The notes under the pieces were generated by a model. That model made no database searches, was not told where the DNA came from, and saw only the letters and a list, made by a program, of their open reading frames with translations. Of a stretch of DNA of 27,392 nucleotides, positions 7,955 to 27,392 are shown piece after piece. Position numbers and translations under genes: made by a program. The DNA is from a virus, in the IMG/VR virus record IMGVR_UViG_3300025102_000224, positions 1-27,392 of that record; one strand, 5' to 3'. The stretch's first letter is position 1, and every line of letters starts with the position of its first letter.

Positions 7955-8663
7955 TTCCTTTCCCTCTCTTATTGTATGTTTTTTGGACTTTGATTGGCTT
8001 TTCTGAGGTTAAGACATCTAGTAGCCTTTGCCTCAAGGTAGTACCCATACCTTTCACTTGTTTCAGTGATTCTGGAAATAGCATTTCTTCAATAGAACCA
8101 CATTTGTCGAGTAACTTCTCTACCAATTCTGGACCAAATCCGGGTATTGTTACTAACATGTCTGCCCTTACATCATTAGTACTAACTCTAGTGATTGCTC
8201 TAGCACCATGCCTACTCGCAGGCTTATGCATTTTGCTGTGAAGTTTGGCTATAAACATAGCCGCTTCTGAGTGGTCTTTAGCACGATATATGTGACAGTC
8301 AAAGTCGGCCATTATTCGTGCGAATGTACCTAGTAGTTCATTCATGACCTTGGAATATGATACATTTCTACCTTGTTTTTTTGAGAGTGCTACATACTTG
8401 GCTATGTCACCATGTACGACAAGAAATACTCTTTCGCAATTAGCATCTAAGTTGTCAATCTGTCTCATAAGATGACCGCTGTGACTAGATTGGAATAAGT
8501 CAGATAGACTCTTACATTCTATGTGAGCATTACCTACTTTGTAATCACCCATGCCTTGCAGATGCTCTTTCTTAACAGAGAAGCCTTGCCTCTCCGCAGC
8601 ACGGACTACGGCGTCGTGTAACTGTCCTCTTTCATTAGTGTCAATTATTAGAGGTACCTTCAT
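7932..8663 (-). CDS. XPF/ERCC4-type structure-specific nuclease with HhH domain
   Basis: A 243-residue nuclease like the archaeal short XPF/Hef nuclease. The catalytic region shows IDTNERG (7-12), GMGDYKVG (37-44) and IECKSLSD (48-55), which align with the GD-Xn-ERK-XXX-D signature; the central Arg is Cys here (C50). A tandem helix-hairpin-helix follows: MLVTIPGFGPELVEKLL (169-185) and LKQVKGMGTTLRQRLL (200-215), which would bind branched DNA. These enzymes cut flaps, forks or 3' overhangs. The start overlaps the preceding winged-helix stop (ATGA). Family is sure; the Arg-to-Cys change may lower or alter activity. Confidence 0.88.
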   Translation of the reverse strand: MKVPLIIDTNERGQLHDAVVRAAERQGFSVKKEHLQGMGDYKVGNAHIECKSLSDLFQSSHSGHLMRQIDNLDANCERVFLVVHGDIAKYVALSKKQGRNVSYSKVMNELLGTFARIMADFDCHIYRAKDHSEAAMFIAKLHSKMHKPASRHGARAITRVSTNDVRADMLVTIPGFGPELVEKLLDKCGSIEEMLFPESLKQVKGMGTTLRQRLLDVLTSEKPIKVQKTYNKRGKGNDGTQSR

Positions 8664-8959
8664 ACAGAATCCTCCTCAACTAATTTCCACAAACATACAT
8701 CATATGCATAACGACCAGAACCTAAACTTGATTGGGTAGTTCCCTTATCACATGATACGAATTCTTTAGAACCAAGTAAAATTTGAGTCAGTACTTGTTT
8801 AGTAGGTGTATTTTTGTAAGTTCTAGTAGGTAGATTTTTTTGACGCTGATTCATGAGCCCTTCTAATATCTGAACAGTGCTCAAAGGTGAGCCTTCTTCT
8901 TTCATGAGGCGCTTAATTCGATTACGGAAGTTCATATTCCTTGATTTATTATTGGCCAT
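8660..8959 (-). CDS. Possible winged-helix DNA-binding protein
   Basis: A 99-residue basic protein starting MANNKSRNMNFRNRIKRLM after AGGTGAG. The segment SPLSTVQILEGLMNQRQ (about 24-40) followed by KNTPTKQVLTQILLGSKEF and a beta-like end (YDVCLWKLVEED) has the helix-turn-helix plus wing order of small winged-helix domains. Its stop overlaps the XPF nuclease start, so the two are coupled. It could be a regulator or a partner for the nuclease. The fold is inferred from pattern only. Confidence 0.45.
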   Translation of the reverse strand: MANNKSRNMNFRNRIKRLMKEEGSPLSTVQILEGLMNQRQKNLPTRTYKNTPTKQVLTQILLGSKEFVSCDKGTTQSSLGSGRYAYDVCLWKLVEEDSV

Positions 8960-17960: not shown

Positions 17961-18893
17961 TTATCTACGCTCCATATTTTTCTTTAGTTTTGCTACAAAG
18001 TACTCAACAAACGCCAAGTCATCATCCGGCCACTGTATAGCCAGTACAACGAACTCTCCGTATGTGAGCATGAAATTGTGCCAATCTTCTTCACTTTCCA
18101 TAAGTGGTTTGGCACGGTGTCTGAGGCCTTTGAGCACACCCAGACGACTGTATCCGCTTTCAAGCGAATTTGCTAGTAGCGCAGTAACCTTTGGGAAATC
18201 TGACCCCATCAGGTTTAGCGCCGCTTGGTTGAGAGACCTAGTGTCTCTTTTGAGGTACTCAATCAAAGCATCCTCTTTGTCAGGTAGTCCGTCAATAATG
18301 TCTATTGCGCTTCTTAGACTACCATTGGTCAATCCTATCAGTGAATGTGTATGTGTGAACCACTCCGAAGGCTTACCTTCCTTTTCAATTATGTAGTTCA
18401 GCCTTTGTACAGCACTGTCATCGTCGACTGGCTTGAATTCGAATGTGAGACATCTGTCTCTAATTGCACTGTTTATGGGTGAAATGTCATTGGCTGCTAG
18501 AATGAATATGGCTGTACCATGACTGCCTTCCATAATCTGCTTGAGTGCTTTCTGAGCAGGGGCAGTAAAACTATCTGCTTCATCAAGGAAAATTATTCTG
18601 CGACTTACACCCAGTGCCTTTTGTTTACTAATACGCTTTAGTTCTCTGACATAGTCAATGCCTCTGTCATCACTAGCATTAGTAACTATGAAGTTCATCG
18701 GGTCGAAGAACTCCCCTAACATGTCCTTGGCTAATGCAATCGCAGCACTGGACTTACCAACACCCGGTGGACCTACGATGAGTATATTACTAGGACAGTT
18801 GTCCACAGACCAGTTGGAAGCAGACTCTACGAATGCTTCACATCCAACTAGTTCACCAATGGTGGTTGGTCGGTACTTTTCTCTGAGGTTCAT
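17961..18893 (-). CDS. RFC-type clamp loader subunit
   Basis: I place the start at ATG 18893 because the TATA box centre lies about 25 bases upstream, predicting a leaderless mRNA; GTG 18902 would be inside the untranscribed promoter. The 310-residue protein has the RFC small-subunit order: NLREKYRPTTIGELVG, Walker A IVGPPGVGKSS, Walker B IIFLDEADS, sensor 1 FILAANDISPI, the arginine-finger motif AIRDRC (SRC in most RFC proteins, here DRC), and sensor 2 TNGSLRSAIDII. It loads the clamp onto primed DNA using ATP. It has no C-terminal PCNA-binding peptide. No large subunit is in the window, so it may act as a homo-oligomer or with a partner elsewhere. Confidence 0.92.
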   Translation of the reverse strand: MNLREKYRPTTIGELVGCEAFVESASNWSVDNCPSNILIVGPPGVGKSSAAIALAKDMLGEFFDPMNFIVTNASDDRGIDYVRELKRISKQKALGVSRRIIFLDEADSFTAPAQKALKQIMEGSHGTAIFILAANDISPINSAIRDRCLTFEFKPVDDDSAVQRLNYIIEKEGKPSEWFTHTHSLIGLTNGSLRSAIDIIDGLPDKEDALIEYLKRDTRSLNQAALNLMGSDFPKVTALLANSLESGYSRLGVLKGLRHRAKPLMESEEDWHNFMLTYGEFVVLAIQWPDDDLAFVEYFVAKLKKNMERR

Positions 18894-18906
18894 TGCCTTC
18901 ACTATT

Positions 18907-18936
18907 CCTTATTCATTTATAACCAGTTAGTCTCAG
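18907..18936 (-). promoter_or_regulatory. TATA promoter P1 for clamp loader gene
   Basis: The minus strand reads ACTGGTTATAAATGAATAAG, with the TATA box TTATAAAT at 18915-18922. It lies in the 30-base space after the ligase-like stop. The same block, including the upstream GAGACTAA and downstream GAATAA, occurs at 23782-23812, and the core again at 25527-25540. The A of the RFC start is the 26th base after the box centre, as in archaeal leaderless promoters. Confidence 0.75.
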
Positions 18937-20387
18937 TTGGCCATTTCTATCAAATCTGTTAGTTGGCATATTTCACCATATCCTGCATTTTCATCTATGT
19001 ACTCTAGTGTTACTTTCTTAATACGCATGTCAATAAGACTGAACTCATTTATCTCAGACATGACTACAACTGCATACTCATCTACAGGTAACCAGTTGTT
19101 ACCCACCAGTACACCTTGTGTCGCTAACTTCTGTCTTATGTGCTGAGCCATACCTACAGGTAGTTTGCTTTCGCCCACCACATATGTCTCGTAGCCATCC
19201 ATGGAAGCAAGTCTTACATGAGTCTCGAATTCTTCATCCTTCATTATGTCTGTAACAAGAAGGTGTACATGGAATGCATCTTTCAATAGCACCCATCCAC
19301 CTTCTCCACCTATAGTGAAACCTGTGTTGACAGTCAGGCGGAGCCTCTCGTCTTTCTCTAGTGTCTCCAGTAAATGACTGACATCTTCGCTGGCACTTAT
19401 TGGCACACCTATCTTTACAGGGCATGTAAGTTTTAACTTACTTAGGTAGGAGGTCCTGTCTGCGTATCCTAGTTTGTATATGTCCCAGTCATCATCTATT
19501 GCCATGACATCGGTAATGCATTTGACTTGGTTGACATCAGCCTCTACCTCGAATATTGCTTCTGAGTCTGTGTAAGGTAGGTCAGTTACCTTCCCTATCA
19601 CTTGCTTGTCTCTGTTGTACAAGACTCCGTTGAACTTACCTTTGGGGAATTCAGTTATGTGTAGGTACCTACGAGGCTTAGATATTACTTCTGCGTACAC
19701 ATCAGTAGGCGCTATCAGTTTGTCCCACGCTCTATACATAGGTCCCTTGAATGCCTGACCGGGTTGCATAGTCCTAACCTCCATCTCTATCTGCTCACTG
19801 GAAAACAACTTACCTGCAATCTCAGAGGGGTGCATAGTTTCTAACATCCTTCTTACAGACTGTAGGCTCTGTCTATTGGTAGACAAGTATGAAATCAGTT
19901 GTAAGAATCGGTCTACTGGAATGGGTGGCCTTTCGTCTAGCGACCTTGCCCAGAATAACATTGCCTCTTTCTCATTCATTTTGCTGGCAATTTTCAGGAA
20001 GCCTTCGTCTTTTATTCTAGTCATGAGATGAAGCGCTTGCTTGACAGTCATACCCTCACCACCATACTCAGGTGACTCAAGGGAGAGTAGAGGTACTATC
20101 GGCTTACCTGCCATAGCCTCATCCCACACAAGGGGAGAGATGCTGAGTTTCTTACAAAGGTCATCTCGTATTTCTCTAACACTTGTGAACTGTCTCTGGT
20201 ATCTTGAATACTTAGGAAAGAATATGTCTATCAGGTTCTGCAAATCATCCTGACCATCATTCATCATCTGAGTAATGGTAGTCAGTGCACCTTCCCAATA
20301 CAGAGACCTGTTCTCAGAATCACTCATGTAATTCCTATACATTTCCCTGAGTTTCTCAGAAATGTGTGCTGCCTCAGCCAGTAACAT
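18933..20387 (-). CDS. DNA-ligase-like protein with degenerate active site
   Basis: The ATG at 20387 has GGAGGGG five bases upstream and is preferred over 20414; it gives 484 residues. The order resembles ATP-dependent DNA ligases: a helical N-terminal DNA-binding part, VRTMQPGQAFKGPMYRAW like the stretch before motif I, ITDVMAIDDDWDIYKLG with YADRTSYLSKL like motif IIIa, EGGWVLLKDA like the later EGxxxK motifs, and a C-terminal OB-like end (EYAVVVMSEINEF, then MRIKKVTLEY). But motif I KxDG reads ISKPRRYLH, so the catalytic centre is missing or changed. QNLIDIFF near residue 50 matches a PCNA-binding box exactly. It may be an inactive ligase used as a scaffold; the family call is tentative. 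Confidence 0.5.
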   Translation of the reverse strand: MLLAEAAHISEKLREMYRNYMSDSENRSLYWEGALTTITQMMNDGQDDLQNLIDIFFPKYSRYQRQFTSVREIRDDLCKKLSISPLVWDEAMAGKPIVPLLSLESPEYGGEGMTVKQALHLMTRIKDEGFLKIASKMNEKEAMLFWARSLDERPPIPVDRFLQLISYLSTNRQSLQSVRRMLETMHPSEIAGKLFSSEQIEMEVRTMQPGQAFKGPMYRAWDKLIAPTDVYAEVISKPRRYLHITEFPKGKFNGVLYNRDKQVIGKVTDLPYTDSEAIFEVEADVNQVKCITDVMAIDDDWDIYKLGYADRTSYLSKLKLTCPVKIGVPISASEDVSHLLETLEKDERLRLTVNTGFTIGGEGGWVLLKDAFHVHLLVTDIMKDEEFETHVRLASMDGYETYVVGESKLPVGMAQHIRQKLATQGVLVGNNWLPVDEYAVVVMSEINEFSLIDMRIKKVTLEYIDENAGYGEICQLTDLIEMAN

Positions 20388-20649
20388 CTGACCCCTCCAA
20401 TTCTTGGAGGGCATGTTGAATTGCTTTGGCTAGTGAAGTTGCATCCTCAAGGTTCAGCCGCACGCCCTCTCTCGTGTAGCCTTCTCCCTTAGGGTGCTCT
20501 ATTGTTTTTCTAACTCGAATATCTATACTGGCAGGTGACTTACCTTTGGGCTCGACGACACTCATTACGACTTCCGACTTGCCTCTCCACTTAACGGAGG
20601 TACAAGGGACACGCCACTTGATAGTCTGCTCGAAGCCTCTGGTACTCAT
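20374..20649 (-). CDS. PC4-like ssDNA-binding protein (putative)
   Basis: A 91-residue basic protein. After strands (TSVKWRGKSEVVMSVVEP) comes SIDIRVRKTIEHPKGEGY, TREGVRLNLEDATSLAKAI and a final helix, similar to the PC4/YdbC fold: strands with an IDIR segment, then tr-x-Gi-x-l, then a long helix. PC4-like proteins bind single-stranded DNA and act in transcription or replication. No clear Shine-Dalgarno precedes the ATG at 20649, five bases after the previous gene. Its end overlaps the ligase-like gene by 14 bases. The fold is inferred by eye. Confidence 0.45.
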   Translation of the reverse strand: MSTRGFEQTIKWRVPCTSVKWRGKSEVVMSVVEPKGKSPASIDIRVRKTIEHPKGEGYTREGVRLNLEDATSLAKAIQHALQELEGSDVTG

Positions 20650-20654
20650 GTCAA

Positions 20655-20942
20655 TCAGAAATCAAAGTGAGTTAGTCCTAATGGTTCATCGTGAGACATT
20701 ACTACGACTGCAAAGCCCGCTTGCACTTTATTCATTGTCCATGCTCCTAGTTCCGTGCTTGACATACCCCCACGGTGGTATTTATCGTCACATTTCATGC
20801 ACCAATCTTTGTTGGTCTTGGCTAACAACTTGTGGCTGTACACAGGCTTCCCGCAGTTTTCACAAGGGTTACTTGGAGTTGTCTTATCTACTATCAACGC
20901 TCTAACGAGCATACCCCTCACAGGGACCATTTCTATTTTCAT
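20655..20942 (-). CDS. Zinc-ribbon protein
   Basis: I use the ATG at 20942, since GGAGGAGGAG sits five bases upstream; the frame is open slightly further. The 95-residue product has CENCGKPVYSHKL (CxxC) and DWCMKCDDKYH (CxxC) separated by about 20 residues, a classic zinc ribbon, flanked by beta strands (MKIEMVPVRGMLVRALIV and AGFAVVVMSHD). It continues the run of small zinc proteins in this operon. Role unknown. Confidence 0.6.
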   Translation of the reverse strand: MKIEMVPVRGMLVRALIVDKTTPSNPCENCGKPVYSHKLLAKTNKDWCMKCDDKYHRGGMSSTELGAWTMNKVQAGFAVVVMSHDEPLGLTHFDF

Positions 20943-20944
20943 AT

Positions 20945-21130
20945 TCACTCCTCCTCCTCATGACTGCTGTGTAGTATCTCAGGCATAATGACCTCGAACC
21001 TACCACCGAATTTATTAATCCTAATCTTAGACTTCTCAAAATCAATCCCGTACTTTAGACAAAGTTCAACCCAAGCAGCGTGTGTATCTACAATCAAATG
21101 TTGCTCTAGCATATGTGGTACTCTAGTCAT
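20945..21130 (-). CDS. Small acidic-tailed protein, unknown
   Basis: A 61-residue protein with GGAGTGAATAAG before its ATG. It has a helix (THAAWVELCLKYGIDFEK), two short strands (IRINKFGGRFEVIMPE) and ends in SSHEEEE, whose GAG codons also act as the ribosome binding site of the next gene. There are no motifs I can name. Its start overlaps the 32-residue zinc protein by eight bases, as is usual in this operon. Confidence 0.5.
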   Translation of the reverse strand: MTRVPHMLEQHLIVDTHAAWVELCLKYGIDFEKSKIRINKFGGRFEVIMPEILHSSHEEEE

Positions 21131-21221
21131 TCTTATTCACTCCTATCAGACAATCGAAGCAAACCTCTGTTGGGTGAGGTAAGTCGTCAGGTAGTTTAAC
21201 TTCACAATCCTTGCACTTCAT
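21123..21221 (-). CDS. 32-residue zinc-ribbon miniprotein
   Basis: A very short frame starts at an ATG overlapping the preceding stop (ATGA), after GAGGA, and ends just inside the next gene. It encodes MKCKDCEVKL and VCFDCLIG, two CxxC pairs 15 residues apart, which is enough for one complete zinc site. It fills the 87 bases between two coupled genes exactly. The metal pattern, ribosome binding site and coupling support it as a real gene, one of the smallest zinc ribbons one could expect. Confidence 0.6.
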   Translation of the reverse strand: MKCKDCEVKLPDDLPHPTEVCFDCLIGVNKND

Positions 21222-21922
21222 TCTTCCTCACCTTTATCCGCTAGTTCAGACCATGTGACATTTGTACCTCTTACATGAGGAGGCAGCAGGCTTCCTGAGA
21301 ATGGACAAAAGGTACCGAGAATTATTACATCGTTAGCCTTCTCATCTATTTTGTGTATGACCTCAGGTCTACTGAGTACAGTGTACTTCACTACTTCGTT
21401 GTTGTAGGTAGTCATCAAGTCATCACCTGCAATCAGTCCGTAGTCGTATGGTTCCATAGGTACTTTAGTATCACAGACAGGGCACTGAATAACTGTGCAC
21501 CATTGCTCTACTTCTTCTACTGTACCGTCAGGTAGTTTCATCTCATGCTGACCATCGAATTGCCAGACAGCCTCCTCTAATGGGAATGCCACCAATGGTA
21601 CTTCGCACTTAGGACAAGGCCACTTCTGCGCTGCTTGTTGTCTGAGCATAATCTCTTGCATGTGTTTCTCTTGTGGAGTCAGGTTACTTGTATCAACCAT
21701 ATTGACTTCTTCTTCATCAACAGTCCAGCCTACACTCTCTACAAGCACTCGCATTCTCACACGAGCCTGAGCAGCAAGTGGCGTGTTCTCTTGTTGTACC
21801 AACTTGAGTTCTGTCTCACCTTCTCTGACATATGACAGACCCAGTCCTGCTGGCTCCCACATACCTCCCGGTCTTAGTTTCTCAAGTATCTGCTTCGCTT
21901 CTTCTTCTGGGTTATGTTGCAT
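21218..21922 (-). CDS. Zinc-ribbon protein of unknown function
   Basis: A 234-residue protein starting after GAGAGGG. The N-terminal half is helical and charged. The centre has CPKCEVPLVAF (CxxC) and WCTVIQCPVCDTKVP (CxxC plus an extra Cys), making one zinc ribbon, and GTFCPFSG near the end adds another Cys. The C-terminal part (YTVLSRPEVIHKI, DVIILGTFC) is beta-rich. It overlaps the next zinc miniprotein by four bases and the preceding gene by eleven. It lies early in the operon. I do not recognise the family; binding nucleic acids or transcription factors is possible. Confidence 0.5.
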   Translation of the reverse strand: MQHNPEEEAKQILEKLRPGGMWEPAGLGLSYVREGETELKLVQQENTPLAAQARVRMRVLVESVGWTVDEEEVNMVDTSNLTPQEKHMQEIMLRQQAAQKWPCPKCEVPLVAFPLEEAVWQFDGQHEMKLPDGTVEEVEQWCTVIQCPVCDTKVPMEPYDYGLIAGDDLMTTYNNEVVKYTVLSRPEVIHKIDEKANDVIILGTFCPFSGSLLPPHVRGTNVTWSELADKGEEE

Positions 21923-22226
21923 TTCTAATTCCCTCTCTTTCTTTCATCCATACCATAGTGTTGCAGCAATGTACAGGCATCAGTTTAGCATGTGCGGTCA
22001 ACAGTATAATAGTACTTTCAGGTAACTCCTGACTGCAACTAGGACACTGGGACAAGTAGGGCGTCGCCTCCACCATCATAATAATTTCGTGGTGTAACTC
22101 GCTCCCAGTCTCGTCTGCGACCTCTTGGGGAACAGGTATAGTAGCACCCACTAGAGGAACTACTACCCCGTTCTTTACCCAATTACCCTCGCCATCTATC
22201 TCTACTGCTTCCATATATTCGCTCAA
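21912..22226 (-). CDS. Small cysteine-containing protein, TTG start
   Basis: The chosen start is TTG 22226, inside the stop of the DUF932 gene, because AGAGGTG lies five bases upstream; the next ATG at 22214 has no such site. The 104-residue product begins with an acidic segment (MEAVEIDGEGNW), then has QCPSCSQEL (CxxC) and PVHCCNTMVW (CC), which could form a zinc site. It is coupled to DUF932 and to the next zinc protein. Function unknown. Confidence 0.5.
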   Translation of the reverse strand: MSEYMEAVEIDGEGNWVKNGVVVPLVGATIPVPQEVADETGSELHHEIIMMVEATPYLSQCPSCSQELPESTIILLTAHAKLMPVHCCNTMVWMKEREGIRNAT

Positions 22227-23722
22227 TAAAGCACCTCTGAAAACATTGGTATAGACTTTAATTGGTCATCTAGTGACACTCCAGACATAGCCTTGCTAGT
22301 CATGTCGCCTAGAATTTTGTGAACGCTCTGTAGTCGGTCAGTAACTGTGTTCATGTTTAGAGTAGCACCATTGAGAACTTGTGTACCATCAGTCCAAGAA
22401 GGCCTGTGTGTCAACGCTCCAGTCAATATGTTGTAGACTTGGTACAGTGAACCTGCATCTTCGTTGTTGACAGCAACCCAAGGTTCACTTGGGTTAGTCC
22501 ATCCTTGTCCCATGAGTCTCCACATATGGCCTCTGGTAATACCAGTTACATCTCCTGCGTCGTCTCTCTTCAAGACAGGCTTTTTAATCAATCCTTTTCT
22601 TTCACAAATGGTCATGAGTTTCTCAAAGGTATCTCTGTTTACCTTAACATCTTTCATGCCCTCTGCCACAAGTATCTCTTTAGCCGCTGCTTGAATGACC
22701 TCTCCTATTTTCTCAGCCATAGTGTCAAAGTCAAAGTTACCCAGAACTCCGTTAGTGTGCTTCAGTTTAATCAAGTTGGCTCTGTCACCCATAACCATTC
22801 CGTTAGTACATACAAGTCGCTCTGCAATTGCTTGTACTTTGAATGAGGAAGAACCATCTAGGCTGTTGTATATCGCAATACCAACTCTGTAGTCTCCGTT
22901 GTTTTTGTATCCCTTGTGAGTCCAGTTGTCACCCAATTGGCTCTCTGCTTGTTCCCAGTCAATGTTACTAGTTACATCACAGAAGCATGCTGCTTTCTTA
23001 CCTTCATCCCAAGCCATCACTTGTGCAGGCCAGCCTTCTTTAGCGGCCAAGTCTAGCACAGGTCCAAACCCTTTGCGGTAAGGCATAGGGTAGTATGAAG
23101 CGCTGAATGTACCTAGGTATGCCCCTGCTGGTCGCTTATCAGTTTCGTACTTAGGGTTGAATATGTGGTAAGCCACTGGTTCTCCTTTTTCAGAATTGAC
23201 ACGGGCTACTGTTGCTCCCATGGTAGGGTTGTCTTCATCACCATGCATGACAAAGGAAGGCTTCCTTACTGGAGTGAAGTCCCAATCATCTGTAATCTTA
23301 GGTGCTCTACCACCTGTTTTGAATACAGCGTCAAAGGGTCCTTCTGCATTTGCTACTACTCCATCAACTGTTACTGTAGGTGCAGCAGACGCTGACCACA
23401 TTGGTACTTCATCATCATATGAATCATCTGTACTTACTGCAGGTAAGTTTTCTCCATACTCAATTGCTGCTGCAATTTCTATTTGTTCTTGTGTTACAAT
23501 CAGTGGTGCCCAATCGCTGCTCAAAATTCTTTCAATGTGAGTCCCTCTGTGACTGTTGTCGTTAAGGAATAATACCGCTACTCTGTCGTTAGTCAGTTTT
23601 CTAAACTCTCCTATACAGGTCCTCGGTATCTTTATGTTCCTTATTCCTTCAATCGAAGGGTACTCCAATTGTATATCATCCTCTGTGCTACTTGTTGTCT
23701 TTCCAATTATTACTATGCTCAT
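22223..23722 (-). CDS. DUF932-family protein
   Basis: The frame opens at 23791, but that ATG lies inside a TATA box. The ATG at 23722, with GGAG upstream, is the likely start and gives 499 residues. The family is recognised by VGIAIYNSLDGSSSFKVQA followed by ERLVCTNGMVMGD and LKHTNG, the hallmark of DUF932 proteins of phages and plasmids: a nucleic-acid-like beta domain with C-x-NG and an HT motif. The N-terminal 140 residues hold an acidic low-complexity linker (about 95-115). It is the first gene of the large operon and therefore probably early. DUF932 has no well-defined biochemical role that I know of. Confidence 0.78.
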   Translation of the reverse strand: MSIVIIGKTTSSTEDDIQLEYPSIEGIRNIKIPRTCIGEFRKLTNDRVAVLFLNDNSHRGTHIERILSSDWAPLIVTQEQIEIAAAIEYGENLPAVSTDDSYDDEVPMWSASAAPTVTVDGVVANAEGPFDAVFKTGGRAPKITDDWDFTPVRKPSFVMHGDEDNPTMGATVARVNSEKGEPVAYHIFNPKYETDKRPAGAYLGTFSASYYPMPYRKGFGPVLDLAAKEGWPAQVMAWDEGKKAACFCDVTSNIDWEQAESQLGDNWTHKGYKNNGDYRVGIAIYNSLDGSSSFKVQAIAERLVCTNGMVMGDRANLIKLKHTNGVLGNFDFDTMAEKIGEVIQAAAKEILVAEGMKDVKVNRDTFEKLMTICERKGLIKKPVLKRDDAGDVTGITRGHMWRLMGQGWTNPSEPWVAVNNEDAGSLYQVYNILTGALTHRPSWTDGTQVLNGATLNMNTVTDRLQSVHKILGDMTSKAMSGVSLDDQLKSIPMFSEVLY

Positions 23723-23762
23723 TTTATCATCTCCATTTCTTATTCGTTTTGCTGGTTTCCTA

Positions 23763-23781
23763 AAAAGGTATTGGACCTTTT
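23763..23781 (-). promoter_or_regulatory. 7-bp dyad over the predicted transcription start
   Basis: The sequence AAAAGGT (23763-23769), ATTGG, ACCTTTT (23775-23781) is a perfect inverted repeat with a five-base loop. It begins about 12 bases after the TATA box centre of the DUF932 promoter and covers the predicted start site near 23768. That fits an operator for a dimeric repressor better than an RNA hairpin, but neither can be proved here. Promoters P1 and P3 lack it. Confidence 0.45.
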
Positions 23782-23812
23782 CATTATTCATTTATAACCA
23801 TTTAGTCTCAGT
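23782..23812 (-). promoter_or_regulatory. TATA promoter P2 for the 20-kb minus-strand operon
   Basis: TTATAAAT at 23790-23797 on the minus strand lies in a block nearly identical to P1: ACTGAGACTAA, then one changed base, then TGGTTATAAATGAATAA. It is in the divergent intergenic space, pointing at the DUF932 gene. The predicted start near 23768 leaves a leader of about 45 bases that contains the GGAG site, unlike the leaderless P1 and P3. Confidence 0.75.
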
Positions 23813-23841
23813 ACATCGTTTTTCAAAAAGCCAGAGAAACA

Positions 23842-23850
23842 AATAATAGA
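23842..23850 (+). promoter_or_regulatory. Weak TATA-like box for the kinase-like gene
   Basis: ACAAATAATAG on the plus strand is centred about 24 bases before the ATG at 23871, the distance of a leaderless archaeal start. There is no good Shine-Dalgarno before that ATG. The box is far from consensus. A TTTTTCAAAAA palindrome lies just upstream (about 23818-23828). Confidence 0.3.
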
Positions 23851-23870
23851 GAGTTACTCATGCGTGTAGC

Positions 23871-24668
23871 ATGGGCGGAGCGTTTGAGCAAGCATGGTTG
23901 CTTCTCAAGGCAGCGTTCCAGCCTGCACAAGGTAAATTCATGGGTGCGGGTATGAATCAATCTGTATACGAACAAGATGGTAACCCTGATGTAGTCAAAG
24001 TAGGTGACCTAGCGCAAAACCCTGCTGGATTAGACCACGGGTATTATAATCACCTACTCAGTCAAGTACCTAGCCTGCCATTCTTCCCCGGCCAAAGTCC
24101 AATGGAACAAACCGCTGAACTACCGAGTGAAGTTAATACTGCGAGTCTACCTATATTGTCCACCCAATCAAAACTTGATGGGTTAGATAGAGGCAAGGCC
24201 GGACTATATGCTGACACAGTGAGAGGTAGGCATCTAGCAAACACACTCTACGACATAGGTGACCAAGGTAAATTATTAGAAGCATTGGGTCTATCTGATT
24301 TGAAAAGAGAAAATTGGGGTGCTACTAAACAGGGTATACCTGAACATCTAGTTACAGGAGAGCCTAGTCAGAGACTAGTACAAGTGCACGACCCCGCTTT
24401 TTACTCTCACTTAGATACATCACAAGAGGCTGCGGAAGGTAGAGGGGCTGCTCCTCGTAAGTTAGGTAGGGACTACAACATACCCGCAGGTACATTGGAA
24501 GAGTTCGCTCGTACTGTAGATAAAAACCCCTTTGATGATTATATCGCTCCCATAGAAGATTCATATTATGACTTCAATGAAGGTGCTAAAACAGAGGATG
24601 CTCTTGCCATGTTGAATCAAAGGCAAGATGCAGTTAATGCTATGCTGGCCTCACTCGGAATCAGGTGA
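23871..24668 (+). CDS. Atypical protein-kinase-like protein
   Basis: This 265-residue protein is the only plus-strand gene in the right part of the window. GKFMGAGMNQSVYEQ (21-35) resembles a kinase glycine loop, VVKVGD (41-46) supplies the beta-3 Lys (K43), SLPILSTQSKL (92-102) fits the hinge strands, GLSDLKRENWGA (140-151) matches the catalytic loop D-L-K-x-x-N with Ser in place of HR, and VQVHDPAFYS (170-179) stands where DFG should be (D174). All main kinase residues are thus present in order, in a short, divergent chain. The C-terminal 80 residues are acidic and helical. It could phosphorylate host or viral proteins, or be a small-molecule kinase. Its end overlaps the convergent gene by 18 bases. 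Confidence 0.5.
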   Translation: MGGAFEQAWLLLKAAFQPAQGKFMGAGMNQSVYEQDGNPDVVKVGDLAQNPAGLDHGYYNHLLSQVPSLPFFPGQSPMEQTAELPSEVNTASLPILSTQSKLDGLDRGKAGLYADTVRGRHLANTLYDIGDQGKLLEALGLSDLKRENWGATKQGIPEHLVTGEPSQRLVQVHDPAFYSHLDTSQEAAEGRGAAPRKLGRDYNIPAGTLEEFARTVDKNPFDDYIAPIEDSYYDFNEGAKTEDALAMLNQRQDAVNAMLASLGIR

Positions 24669-24974
24669 ACCATGTGGTGAGTGTGCTGGTGTACCCCAGT
24701 CACGGACTTTATACTCAGCCACAAGGTGAGTAATACCGGGTTTGCCTGCGAACTTTGTCATCGTACCTACATCTGACCAATCTTCTTTAGTTTCGTAATC
24801 TAAGTTCCTCTGTACAACTTCCCAAATAAATTCACCCACCCAATGTTTAAGGGCTTTTTCTTCATGTCCACTTATTCTAATAATCTCATCAAGCATTTTC
24901 AACATCCCGTATAGGTTGTCGTACCACTCGTCATTGTTTCTTCCCGCTACTATATCATAATCTATTCCTTTCAT
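24651..24974 (-). CDS. Small helical protein, unknown
   Basis: Start chosen at ATG 24974, with GGAGGG six bases upstream, giving 107 residues; the frame continues upstream but into the neighbouring gene. It is helical (WYDNLYGMLKMLDEIIRI, then ALKHWVGEFIWEVVQRNL) with an acidic centre and a flexible end (TPAHSPHGSPDSE). No motif known to me. It is the last gene of the right minus-strand group and its stop overlaps the end of the convergent kinase-like gene. Role unknown. Confidence 0.5.
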   Translation of the reverse strand: MKGIDYDIVAGRNNDEWYDNLYGMLKMLDEIIRISGHEEKALKHWVGEFIWEVVQRNLDYETKEDWSDVGTMTKFAGKPGITHLVAEYKVRDWGTPAHSPHGSPDSE

Positions 24975-25192
24975 TTGTTTCCCTCCTTCTTGTAAATCAG
25001 TACACATGGTACTGGAAATCTTTTGGTTGAGCGTATGAGTATAGTTCTCTCCATACCCATTCTTTTCAATCCCTCATCTAGTATGTCTAGCATATCATTG
25101 ACCTTGTTATCCTTGCTGGGTAGAAACTGCACACACATCTCTCCATTGACATCGTGTTCTATGACAGTGCCTGTGTTACCAAAGTCTATCAT
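24971..25192 (-). CDS. Small protein, unknown
   Basis: A 73-residue protein starting at an ATG overlapping the preceding stop, with AAGGGTGA upstream. Two beta segments (GTVIEHDVNGEMCVQFLPS and RFPVPCVLIYKKE) flank a helix (KVNDMLDILDEGLKRMG). No metal or membrane pattern is evident. It is coupled to both neighbours. I do not recognise it. Confidence 0.5.
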   Translation of the reverse strand: MIDFGNTGTVIEHDVNGEMCVQFLPSKDNKVNDMLDILDEGLKRMGMERTILIRSTKRFPVPCVLIYKKEGNK

Positions 25193-25509
25193 ACAATCAC
25201 CCTTGTAATAAATCTAGCATCTGTTTTGAAGTTACCCGGTAAATCTTTCCTAAGCACCTTTCTAGTAACCGTCTTCCAACCACAGTCTAAGTACTTAGTT
25301 TCAGAAAACATAGGACCAAATCTCTCAACAGGCATGTGGTTGGAGTGGGAAACTCTATGACCGCTAACCTCAAAGTATCTTCTACAGACATTTGCAAGAA
25401 AATCTTTCTTAGGTAAAATCTTTACATCATCAGGTATTGTATCAATAACATCATAGAATGCTTGTTGAACTGAATCCCAGTCAAGTCTTCTTACTGCTCC
25501 TCTTCCCAT
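25189..25509 (-). CDS. Small basic protein behind promoter P3
   Basis: I place the start at ATG 25509 (MGRGAVRRLDW) because the TATA box centre is 25 bases upstream, the same leaderless geometry as the clamp loader gene; the ATG at 25524 would lie upstream of the predicted start site. The product has 106 residues, is basic, with helices (SVQQAFYDVIDTI, KDFLANVCRRYFEVSG) and a C-terminal beta part (KTVTRKVLRKDLPG). DNA binding is plausible but no family is recognised. It starts just after the SNF2 gene, sharing its promoter with that gene's last codons. Confidence 0.5.
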   Translation of the reverse strand: MGRGAVRRLDWDSVQQAFYDVIDTIPDDVKILPKKDFLANVCRRYFEVSGHRVSHSNHMPVERFGPMFSETKYLDCGWKTVTRKVLRKDLPGNFKTDARFITRVIV

Positions 25510-25523
25510 GCTAATCATAACCA

Positions 25524-27392
25524 TTATTCATTTATAACTGGTTCGTATTTCCATCCACGCTCTTTCTTTAGTTTCTGAACTAACTGTGCTACCAAACCCT
25601 TTCTTTGCTCTACATCTCCACCATCGAGGACAGCCTTGACAACTCTTCTTTTCTCTTCTACTACTCTGTCAAAGTGCTCATCAATTGTACCAGCACATGA
25701 GAGGTACACAGCGTGTACATTATCTGACTCTTGTCCAATACGGTACACACGGTCTTCTGCTTGCTCCTCATCAGTCGGTACCCACTCTCTTTCTATGAAC
25801 AAAACTGTGTCTGCCTTAGTAAGAGTAATACCTTCTTTAGCAGCAATTGTATTACATATCAGTACATTTATCTTACCTGCCTGAAAGTTCTCTACTATGT
25901 CCTGCCTCTTCTGTGAAGAGACGCTTCCGCTAATGTAGTCCACTGTTAATTTCACTGGGTCTATCTTCTTGTTAGCAAGTTCAAGTATACCCTGACCTAT
26001 CAACTCCATTACATCACGGTGGTGAGTGAAGACTACTATTGGTTTCCCTGTCTGCTGAGTGTACTGACTTATCCACTCAACTGCATGACCTGTCTTTATC
26101 CTACCACATATGTGCCTCAAGTCATTGAGCATGTTGAGCATCATACCCTGAGGTAGAGGCTCTCCGTTGAGGTAGTGCTCTTCTATTCGCCTCTCCCACT
26201 CATCTTGTGCAGCATCGTAAGGACTACGAATGTCTGCTGGTAAATGAATGGGTAAGAATGTACGAGTCTTAGGAGGCAAGTCAGGTAACACTTCACTCTT
26301 GAGTCTACGAATACACAGGTCACGAGTTCTCTCATTGAGTTCCTTTATGTTACTTGCACCTGAAAGGTCCCAGCCCCATCCTGTATTCCATGGGTCACAA
26401 TATCGTTGGTAAAAGTTCCAAGCGTTAGGAAACTGGTCAGGTCTCATTAGGTTGAGTGTGTTGAAAAACTCCTTCGGTCTACTAGCAATCGCTGTCCCTG
26501 ACAACGCAAGTACCTTAGGGCACACTGTAGCAATGTCTAGCGTAGCCTGTGTTCTCTGAACTGGTTTGTTCGTTGAACCTGAATTCTTGAGGTAATGTAC
26601 CTCATCGAGTATGACCATGCGTGGTGCGAGTTTTCTAATCTCCGACCTGTAATCCTTTACTATGTCGTAGTTAATCAATACGAAGTCAGACATGGGTATA
26701 GAGTTCAGTCCCTCGCCAATACTTTCTAGGTATTTCTCTGCAGTTGTACCAAATTTGACCTGTTCTTCTGTCGCCCCTTTCGAGAGTGCAAGTGCCTTCT
26801 TATCATCAGCGTTCATGTTACTTTTAGAATTGACAACATGTACTTTCTCATTAGGTAACCATTTGTTCAGTTCCTTTTTCCAATTGTATTTTACATTCGC
26901 AGGTGCGACTACAACAACTGGTCTGTCTGTAGGATTAATCGCTGCGTAACCAATTGCTGAAATCGTTTTTCCTATTCCCATTTCATCTCCAATCAAACAC
27001 CTGCCATTACTTGCTTCTGCAAATGCAACTGCTACTTTTTGAAACGGGTAGAGGTCAAGTCCTTCGGGCAACACTTGGTTGAGTGTATCAGAAATCCTCT
27101 TCTCATCTACTTCTTTCAATACAGAAGCCCCGCTTATCTCGACCCTACCAATGCTCTTCTCTATCTCCTCAGCAATCTCAGGGTTACTCAGTATAGCCTC
27201 AGCCAGTTTGTCATACATCCCTTCGACCATTGAGTACAGAGTACTCGCTTGTTGTACGGGTATCGACCAACACTTGTTGTCGTTGTGAAACTTTCTACCT
27301 GAAATAGACCTGACTGCATTCAAAACTCGGTCTCTTAAATCTGAATCTCGTATGAATGGCCAATGTAAGTATAACCTTACTCCCTTGACCTT
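25524..27392 (-). CDS. SNF2-family helicase with HARP-like N-terminus, cut by window edge
   Basis: The frame is open to the last base of the window (reading KVKGVRLYLHWPF), so the true start lies outside; TTG 27323 is not the start. The N-terminal stretch RSISGRKFHNDNKCWSIP resembles the HARP-like annealing-helicase module of SMARCAL1-type proteins. Helicase motifs follow: GDEMGIGKT (I), VVVVAPANV (Ia), VILDEVHYLKN (II), LALSGTAIASRP (III), IVVFTHHRDV (IV), NTIAAKEGITLT (V) and QAEDRVYRIGQ (VI). It is an ATP-driven dsDNA translocase that may remodel forks or displace proteins. The C-terminal codons contain promoter P3. Confidence 0.9.
   Translation of the reverse strand, partial: KVKGVRLYLHWPFIRDSDLRDRVLNAVRSISGRKFHNDNKCWSIPVQQASTLYSMVEGMYDKLAEAILSNPEIAEEIEKSIGRVEISGASVLKEVDEKRISDTLNQVLPEGLDLYPFQKVAVAFAEASNGRCLIGDEMGIGKTISAIGYAAINPTDRPVVVVAPANVKYNWKKELNKWLPNEKVHVVNSKSNMNADDKKALALSKGATEEQVKFGTTAEKYLESIGEGLNSIPMSDFVLINYDIVKDYRSEIRKLAPRMVILDEVHYLKNSGSTNKPVQRTQATLDIATVCPKVLALSGTAIASRPKEFFNTLNLMRPDQFPNAWNFYQRYCDPWNTGWGWDLSGASNIKELNERTRDLCIRRLKSEVLPDLPPKTRTFLPIHLPADIRSPYDAAQDEWERRIEEHYLNGEPLPQGMMLNMLNDLRHICGRIKTGHAVEWISQYTQQTGKPIVVFTHHRDVMELIGQGILELANKKIDPVKLTVDYISGSVSSQKRQDIVENFQAGKINVLICNTIAAKEGITLTKADTVLFIEREWVPTDEEQAEDRVYRIGQESDNVHAVYLSCAGTIDEHFDRVVEEKRRVVKAVLDGGDVEQRKGLVAQLVQKLKKERGWKYEPVINE
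25527..25540 (-). promoter_or_regulatory. TATA promoter P3 inside the end of the SNF2 gene
   Basis: The minus strand reads CCAGTTATAAATGAATAATG, with the box at 25530-25537, embedded in the last codons and stop of the helicase gene. It shares its core with P1 and P2 but lacks their upstream GAGACTAA. The centre is 25 bases before the ATG at 25509, predicting a leaderless transcript of the 106-residue gene and those after it. Confidence 0.65.

Follow-up and report, generated by a model that had tools for sequence, protein, structure and literature searches.

Probable viral promoter copies in a magrovirus fragment are alike within a genome and differ between related genomes

Magroviruses are abundant viruses of abundant, uncultured ocean archaea. 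Here, we report a repeated promoter-like block in IMG/VR record IMGVR_UViG_3300025102_000224 (the whole record, 27,392 bases; hereafter, the window), which its genes and layout mark as a probable fragment of a magrovirus, a tailed virus of Poseidoniales archaea. A 14-letter box, TTATAAATGAATAA, occurs exactly three times in the window, always on the minus strand (sites P1, P2, and P3), and very likely is a genuine viral promoter. In relatives, a TATA-box block stands ahead of the same two genes as P1 and P2, those for the RFC small subunit (RFC-S) and a DUF932 protein, and its sequence is different in each genome; noncorresponding copies within a genome are far more alike than corresponding copies across genomes. 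P1 and P2 are probably copies of a viral promoter cassette for the magrovirus early/replication arm, and a factor that reads their sequence may keep them alike.

The sites and the genes around them are as follows (aa, amino acids).

18894..18938, minus strand: P1 cassette (ACTGA box, TTATAAATGAATAA core, and spacer), ahead of RFC-S
18909..18922, minus strand: P1 core TTATAAATGAATAA, exact match
23784..23812, minus strand: P2 cassette ACTGAGACTAAATGGTTATAAATGAATAA, intergenic, ahead of the DUF932 gene
23784..23797, minus strand: P2 core TTATAAATGAATAA, exact match
25524..25537, minus strand: P3 core TTATAAATGAATAA, inside the 3' end of the SNF2 helicase gene, without an ACTGA box
17961..18893, minus strand: RFC-S, 310 aa, ATG at 18893, AAA domain, behind P1
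22223..23722, minus strand: DUF932 protein, 499 aa, ATG at 23722 instead of 23791, PF06067, behind P2
25189..25509, minus strand: 106-aa gene, ATG at 25509 (MGRG...), downstream of P3
25524..27323, minus strand: SNF2-family helicase, with the P3 core within its last codons

A first-pass annotation, made from the letters of the window, had reported the three minus-strand sites (18909-18922, 23784-23797, and 25524-25537) and an agreement of P1 and P2 over about 30 bases. All three matches are exact, and P1 and P2 have ~29 bp in common with one difference (ACTGAGACTAA[C/A]TGGTTATAAATGAATAA); P3 has only the 14-mer and one G in common with them. No fourth site was found in the window with up to 2 mismatches allowed (shuffles at 2 mismatches average 0.5). 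For any 14-mer of the P1/P2 block, shuffles expect 0.02 matches per window, and related virus DNA (2.49 Mb, both strands) held none. The minus strand of the window has three TTATAAA and the plus strand none, and only 3 of 28 minus-strand genes (RFC-S, DUF932, and the 106-aa gene) have TATAAA at most 75 nucleotides (nt) upstream of their start. From TTATAAA to the ATG, the distance is 29 nt at P1, 28 nt at P3, and 75 nt at P2. The TGA of the P1 ACTGA box doubles as the stop codon of the upstream gene.

The comparison set consisted of fetched relatives with the same gene order as the window. Among the related contigs examined, only the near-identical G001 shares the exact 14-mer, and a 17-mer scan of IMG/VR returned only the near-identical contig and four contigs without a tblastn match to window genes; the 14-mer as such was therefore rejected as a conserved motif. 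The first-pass annotation had proposed searching relatives for the motif and abandoning the promoter if it was absent there. The exact motif is indeed absent, yet the TATA block stands at the same positions, and that rule would wrongly have dismissed what is very probably a real promoter: exact-motif searches of relatives can miss a conserved one. The regulon that the annotation proposed stands as a virus-wide promoter set in which the positions, and not the 14-mer, are conserved. Each genome instead has its own version of the block (its dialect), found at both sites: CGGTTATAAATAAACAAGAAA in G002 and G009, AAACTGGTTATAAAGAAACAATAAAG in G006, CTTCTTTTATAAAGGTCCTAAG in G013 and G017, ACTATATAAAGAACTAACAAAG in G019, and CCCCTTATAAATCTCCAAA in G011.

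In the 12 genomes with both sites, P1-P2 identity in the core (-8..+20) was 0.91 within genomes versus 0.53 between genomes, and corresponding sites of different genomes also averaged 0.53. Over -15..+28, the values were 0.76 and 0.47 (permutation P = 5e-5); the between-genome identities were computed without gaps, with the TATA box as the anchor, and so are somewhat pessimistic, and the genomes share ancestry. Within-genome identity drops sharply outside about -8..+20, to 0.49 at +21..+28. A motif-free test took the 54 bases upstream of RFC-S at 76 loci and searched the rest of each locus for the closest further copy of any 22-mer in them. After dereplication into 43 groups, a copy matching at least 20/22 was present on the same strand in 18/43 and on the opposite strand in 0/43. 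Since the positive groups include RFC-S proteins only 34-50% identical to that of the window, the habit is spread through magroviruses. L013/G010, which is more distant, lacks a TATA box immediately before RFC-S; its second-copy match is 19/22.

Scanned with its own genome-specific 22-mer, each genome held 2-7 own-dialect copies on one strand of the early/replication arm: 7 in G002, G006 (5 exact), and G019; 5 in G005 and G023; 4 in G009 and G017; and 3 in G015. G013 had one extra weak match (5 mismatches) on the other strand. When every dialect was scanned against every genome, the matrix was near-diagonal at no more than 2 mismatches; the exceptions were similar dialects (G006/G016, and one G011 site with the G012 type) and shared lineages (G002/G009, G023/G007, G017/G013, and the recombinant G018). 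The genes behind the copies are RFC-S, DUF932, and variable early genes, mostly of unknown function. One copy precedes an ArdC-like anti-restriction gene, and the others stand mostly before small genes of unknown function and replication genes; the genes behind these other copies are anti-defense candidates. The ArdC-like protein (G019, L089:14984-15934, minus strand) has an MPTase-PolyVal domain and lies directly behind its early promoter copy.

Aligned on the TATA box, 47 copies give ACTGA-N10-TTATAAA-N4-CAANAAAG. ACTGA lies exactly at -15 from the TATA start in 19/47, with nearby variants in more, and in 12 of these 19 no upstream gene ends at its TGA. The bases just upstream of the TATA box are dialect specific (TGG, CGG, CCC, TCC, TCT, or GAC). 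The alignment indicates that the outer ACTGA box and the downstream element are common to the viruses and that the bases hugging the TATA box belong to the dialect. The sequence beside the 47 copies showed no excess of structure, which led us to reject PeSL-like (promoter early stem-loop) elements, and no general palindrome was seen by eye in the repeats.

The proposed cassette would consist of the ACTGA box, 10 variable bases, TTATAAA, 4 variable bases, and, in most cases, CAANAAAG close to where transcription is predicted to start. Host TBP, TFB, and RNA polymerase would read the TATA box, since the viruses encode neither TBP nor TFB: none was found in 11 viral records, and a viral TBP or TFB was rejected as the reader on that ground. 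The first-pass annotation had likewise named the host factors; this fits the absent viral ones, but host reading does not by itself explain genome-specific versions. Dialect bases around the TATA box repeat at 2-7 sites per virus and change together between viruses, and the copies would stay alike because one sequence-reading factor must recognize them all. The reader would most likely be a DNA-binding protein encoded by the virus, working together with host TBP/TFB. From gene order, the P1 transcript would cover RFC-S and the replication genes that follow it, that of P2 would cover DUF932 through a 493-aa gene, and that of P3 would cover the 106-, 73-, and 118-aa genes. The boxes had been taken to define transcription units, and each does head a same-strand gene run.

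Three processes could keep the copies alike, namely, a viral factor, copying by recombination, and adaptation to host TFB, and we place the viral factor first only modestly. In its favor, the matched region spans only about 28 bp and its edges are sharp. If host TBP/TFB suffices, the likeness would come from promoter duplication or recombination (copy-paste with early genes, or short conversion tracts). This account is possible, although we think it is clearly less likely than an even chance. Variable early genes do carry own-dialect copies in different genomes, mixed-dialect recombinants exist, and the repeat promoters of halovirus HF2 are active in a host without viral proteins (PMC8707807). 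The fall in identity outside about -8..+20, however, leaves a region short for recombination tracts; in the close pairs G015/G016 and G007/G023, the cores of P1 and P2 have both changed, whereas the bases flanking P1 are largely unchanged; and the entire TATA neighborhood differs among viruses of one host order.

TFB contacts the DNA flanking the TATA box, and the variable bases flank that box, as they would if the dialect were tuned to a TFB variant or B-recognition element (BRE) of a particular Poseidoniales host; one metagenome-assembled genome of the host order has two TFB genes. We consider such tuning unlikely. The dialect family GTTATAAANAAACAANAAAG, the sole one searched, is absent from 146 host-order genomes at up to 1 mismatch, which also led us to reject the cassette as a copied host promoter. 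Host TATA-like boxes (a small sample) lie ~40-50 nt from the ATG and do not look like the cassette, and the close relatives G015 and G016 differ strongly.

It is very unlikely that the repeats are viral repressor operators, akin to the stoperators of mycobacteriophages, and that the dialect determines the specificity of immunity. The motif is common within a genome and differs between related viruses, as in the Cluster A stoperators (PMC6550527), but there are only 2-7 sites, and each contains a TATA box and immediately precedes a gene. The lack of a general palindrome also argues against operators, and the described magrovirus family has no integrase and is predicted to be lytic (PMC12999244).

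Several observations weigh against the preferred reading of a cassette held constant by a viral factor. No viral regulator was identified with confidence, and the best candidate (below) is missing from most relatives by sequence search. At 20/22, 25/43 groups have no second copy, with many of the negative loci lacking P2-region sequence. G018 and G024 carry the G017 dialect at P1 and the G019 dialect at P2 (G018 also at a further copy), so dialect mixing is viable and tolerated at least briefly. The own copies of G023 differ slightly in the TATA box, and P3 has neither an ACTGA box nor a counterpart in relatives. The mixed genotype itself (L091 of G018 and L095 of G024) is a natural recombinant found in two independent assemblies/samples, 99.8% identical; the left ~9 kb of G018 resembles G019, and the rest resembles G017.

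Pfam and PHROG scans of early-arm proteins found no regulators. One structural candidate was predicted in the window.

8660..8959, minus strand: candidate viral DNA-binding protein, 99 aa, predicted winged-helix fold (AlphaFold pLDDT 76; Foldseek hits to winged-helix proteins, E value 0.01-0.3)

This protein is a possible partner of the promoter set and no more than a lead. A stricter form of the preferred reading is a private transcription system, in which a fast-evolving viral DNA-binding protein reads a genome-specific code around the TATA box; this is conceivable, but we would not bet on it. Were it true, the protein and several promoters would coevolve, and viruses of the same host order could not use each other's promoters. 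Small winged-helix-like proteins lie directly after the SNF2 helicase in G011 (L071:14931-15182, minus strand) and G002 (L035:15972-16226, plus strand). A 91-aa protein of the window (20374-20649, minus strand) is conserved in magroviruses, where 9 aligned sequences are 60-91% identical. It was rejected as a PC4-like/Sub1 coactivator: the beta4-alpha model is of low confidence, matches to T5 PC4/MoSub1 are nonsignificant, and there is no sequence match.

The three copies had been presented as equivalent, but P3 is not the equal of P1 and P2: it has no ACTGA box, sits within a coding sequence, and finds no matching site at the same junction in relatives. Its core encodes the last residues of the helicase (GTT ATA AAT GAA TAA, V I N E stop). 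We give P3 a high probability of being a recent, minimal third copy. Should it be a chance AT-rich match instead, the promoters would be P1 and P2 only; the three shortcomings just given point that way, as does the start of the next gene in relatives, which often overlaps or closely trails the helicase stop codon. We nonetheless judge chance improbable, because the 14-mer is exact against the 0.02 expected, is on the correct strand, lies 28 nt before a homology-supported start (29 nt at P1), and contains one of the window's three TTATAAA, both strands counted. The P3 unit (24651-25509) converges head-on with a 265-aa gene on the opposite strand (23871-24668); this gene is present in 12 genomes and has no Pfam or PHROG match, and no promoter of its own was found.

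Three gene starts had been corrected from the positions of the boxes, with RFC-S at 18893, the 106-aa gene at 25509, and DUF932 at 23722 in place of the ATG at 23791, which lies inside the P2 box. Homologues agree with all three. In tblastn and protein alignments, RFC-S starts at MNLREKYRP (ATG 18893); DUF932, started at 23722, is conserved from residue 3 in most relatives; and relatives of the 106-aa protein begin with MGRG (ATG 25509), overlapping the helicase stop codon. Homology supports these starts, so the corrections need not lean on the promoter.

The claim that P1 and P3 give leaderless mRNAs fared less well: the distances of 29 and 28 nt stand, and the leaderless state is not established. 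We put such mRNAs at slightly under an even chance and leaderless translation of the P1 and P3 genes at about even. The ATG lies 25-26 nt from the box center, the usual archaeal distance to the transcription start, and the TATA boxes of HF2 have their first base at -26 relative to mapped starts (PMC8707807). At the homologous promoters of relatives, however, 35-38 nt usually separate the ATG from the start of the box, and most have a Shine-Dalgarno-like GTGA, GGTGA, or GGAG between; only P1 and P3 of the window and a few others are close enough for leaderless starts. P1 of the window also has GTGA directly before the RFC-S ATG, and read-through transcripts could also supply RFC-S translation. 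DUF932 is predicted to have a leader.

23723..23770, minus strand: predicted DUF932 5' leader, ~45 nt from the predicted start site, with GGAG before the ATG

The leader holds a AAACCAGCAAAAC stretch conserved in most relatives; a structured RNA was rejected, since RNA folding predicts no structure.

Elsewhere, the window encodes a thermosome, a family-B DNA polymerase, and a primase large subunit, besides RFC-S, SNF2 helicase, and DUF932. Replication genes occupy the minus strand and tail-like genes the plus strand, with the two arms meeting near 3.62 kb; RFC-S heads a long replication run (PolB, PCNA-like, RadA-like, primase, and thermosome). Magroviruses are described as having replication and morphogenesis modules with opposite predicted transcription directions (PMC12999244). 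Small proteins that follow the pattern MIDTDKYEGHTPxPW...ADAPLLLAEVKRLRE are encoded in tandem in the early arms of some relatives (G002, L035:6804-9145; G015, L067:12527-13894; and G019, L089:12567-13431). This pattern is presumably one that also occurs among bacteriophage small proteins.

A short repeated block, recognizable from the sequence by itself, marks transcription units, corrects gene starts, and flags anti-defense candidates. The concerted change of the promoters is a natural experiment that bears on how a regulator and its sites, or recombination among the sites, shape viral promoters. A survey of magroviruses (PMC10160649) does not mention promoters, and our search, which did not extend to Philosof 2017 and Prabhu 2025, found no paper on magrovirus transcription or promoters.

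Repeated promoter sequences are known from other viruses. In SIRV2 and other archaeal viruses, a virus-specific regulatory sequence around the TATA box/BRE is common to the early genes, which include anti-defense genes and for which a winged helix-turn-helix regulator, Aca8, is proposed (PMC11065993). As in these viruses, one regulatory sequence around the TATA box precedes several genes of one magrovirus and differs between viruses. In SIRV-type viruses, however, the TATA/BRE core is highly similar and mainly the flanks vary, whereas core identity between magroviruses is 0.53 and the outer ACTGA box is shared; the magrovirus set would also drive core replication genes (RFC-S), and no counterpart of Aca8 is established. 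The PeSL of T4-type phages, with a PeSL-like motif in HGTV-1 (PMC3950731), is likewise a repeated promoter motif ahead of variable early open reading frames, but the T4-type PeSL needs a stem-loop, and none adjoins the magrovirus copies. Cluster A stoperators resemble the cassette in having a within-genome consensus that diverges between related phages, there with a cognate protein; they are promoter-independent repressor sites numbering up to about 30 per genome, whereas magrovirus copies are few and each is a TATA promoter upstream of a gene (PMC6550527). Halovirus HVTV-1 has no second copy of the sequence upstream of RFC, and the magrovirus pattern was not seen there. The class I/II intergenic repeats of HF2 have proven promoter activity (PMC8707807) and, like magrovirus P1 and P2, are repeated promoter blocks of a tailed archaeal virus whose positions are kept between relatives; HF2 repeats are strongly conserved across the genus, whereas magrovirus sequences agree only within a genome. 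The magrovirus cassette is of the SIRV2/HF2 repeat-promoter kind, but the neighborhood of its core varies between genomes.

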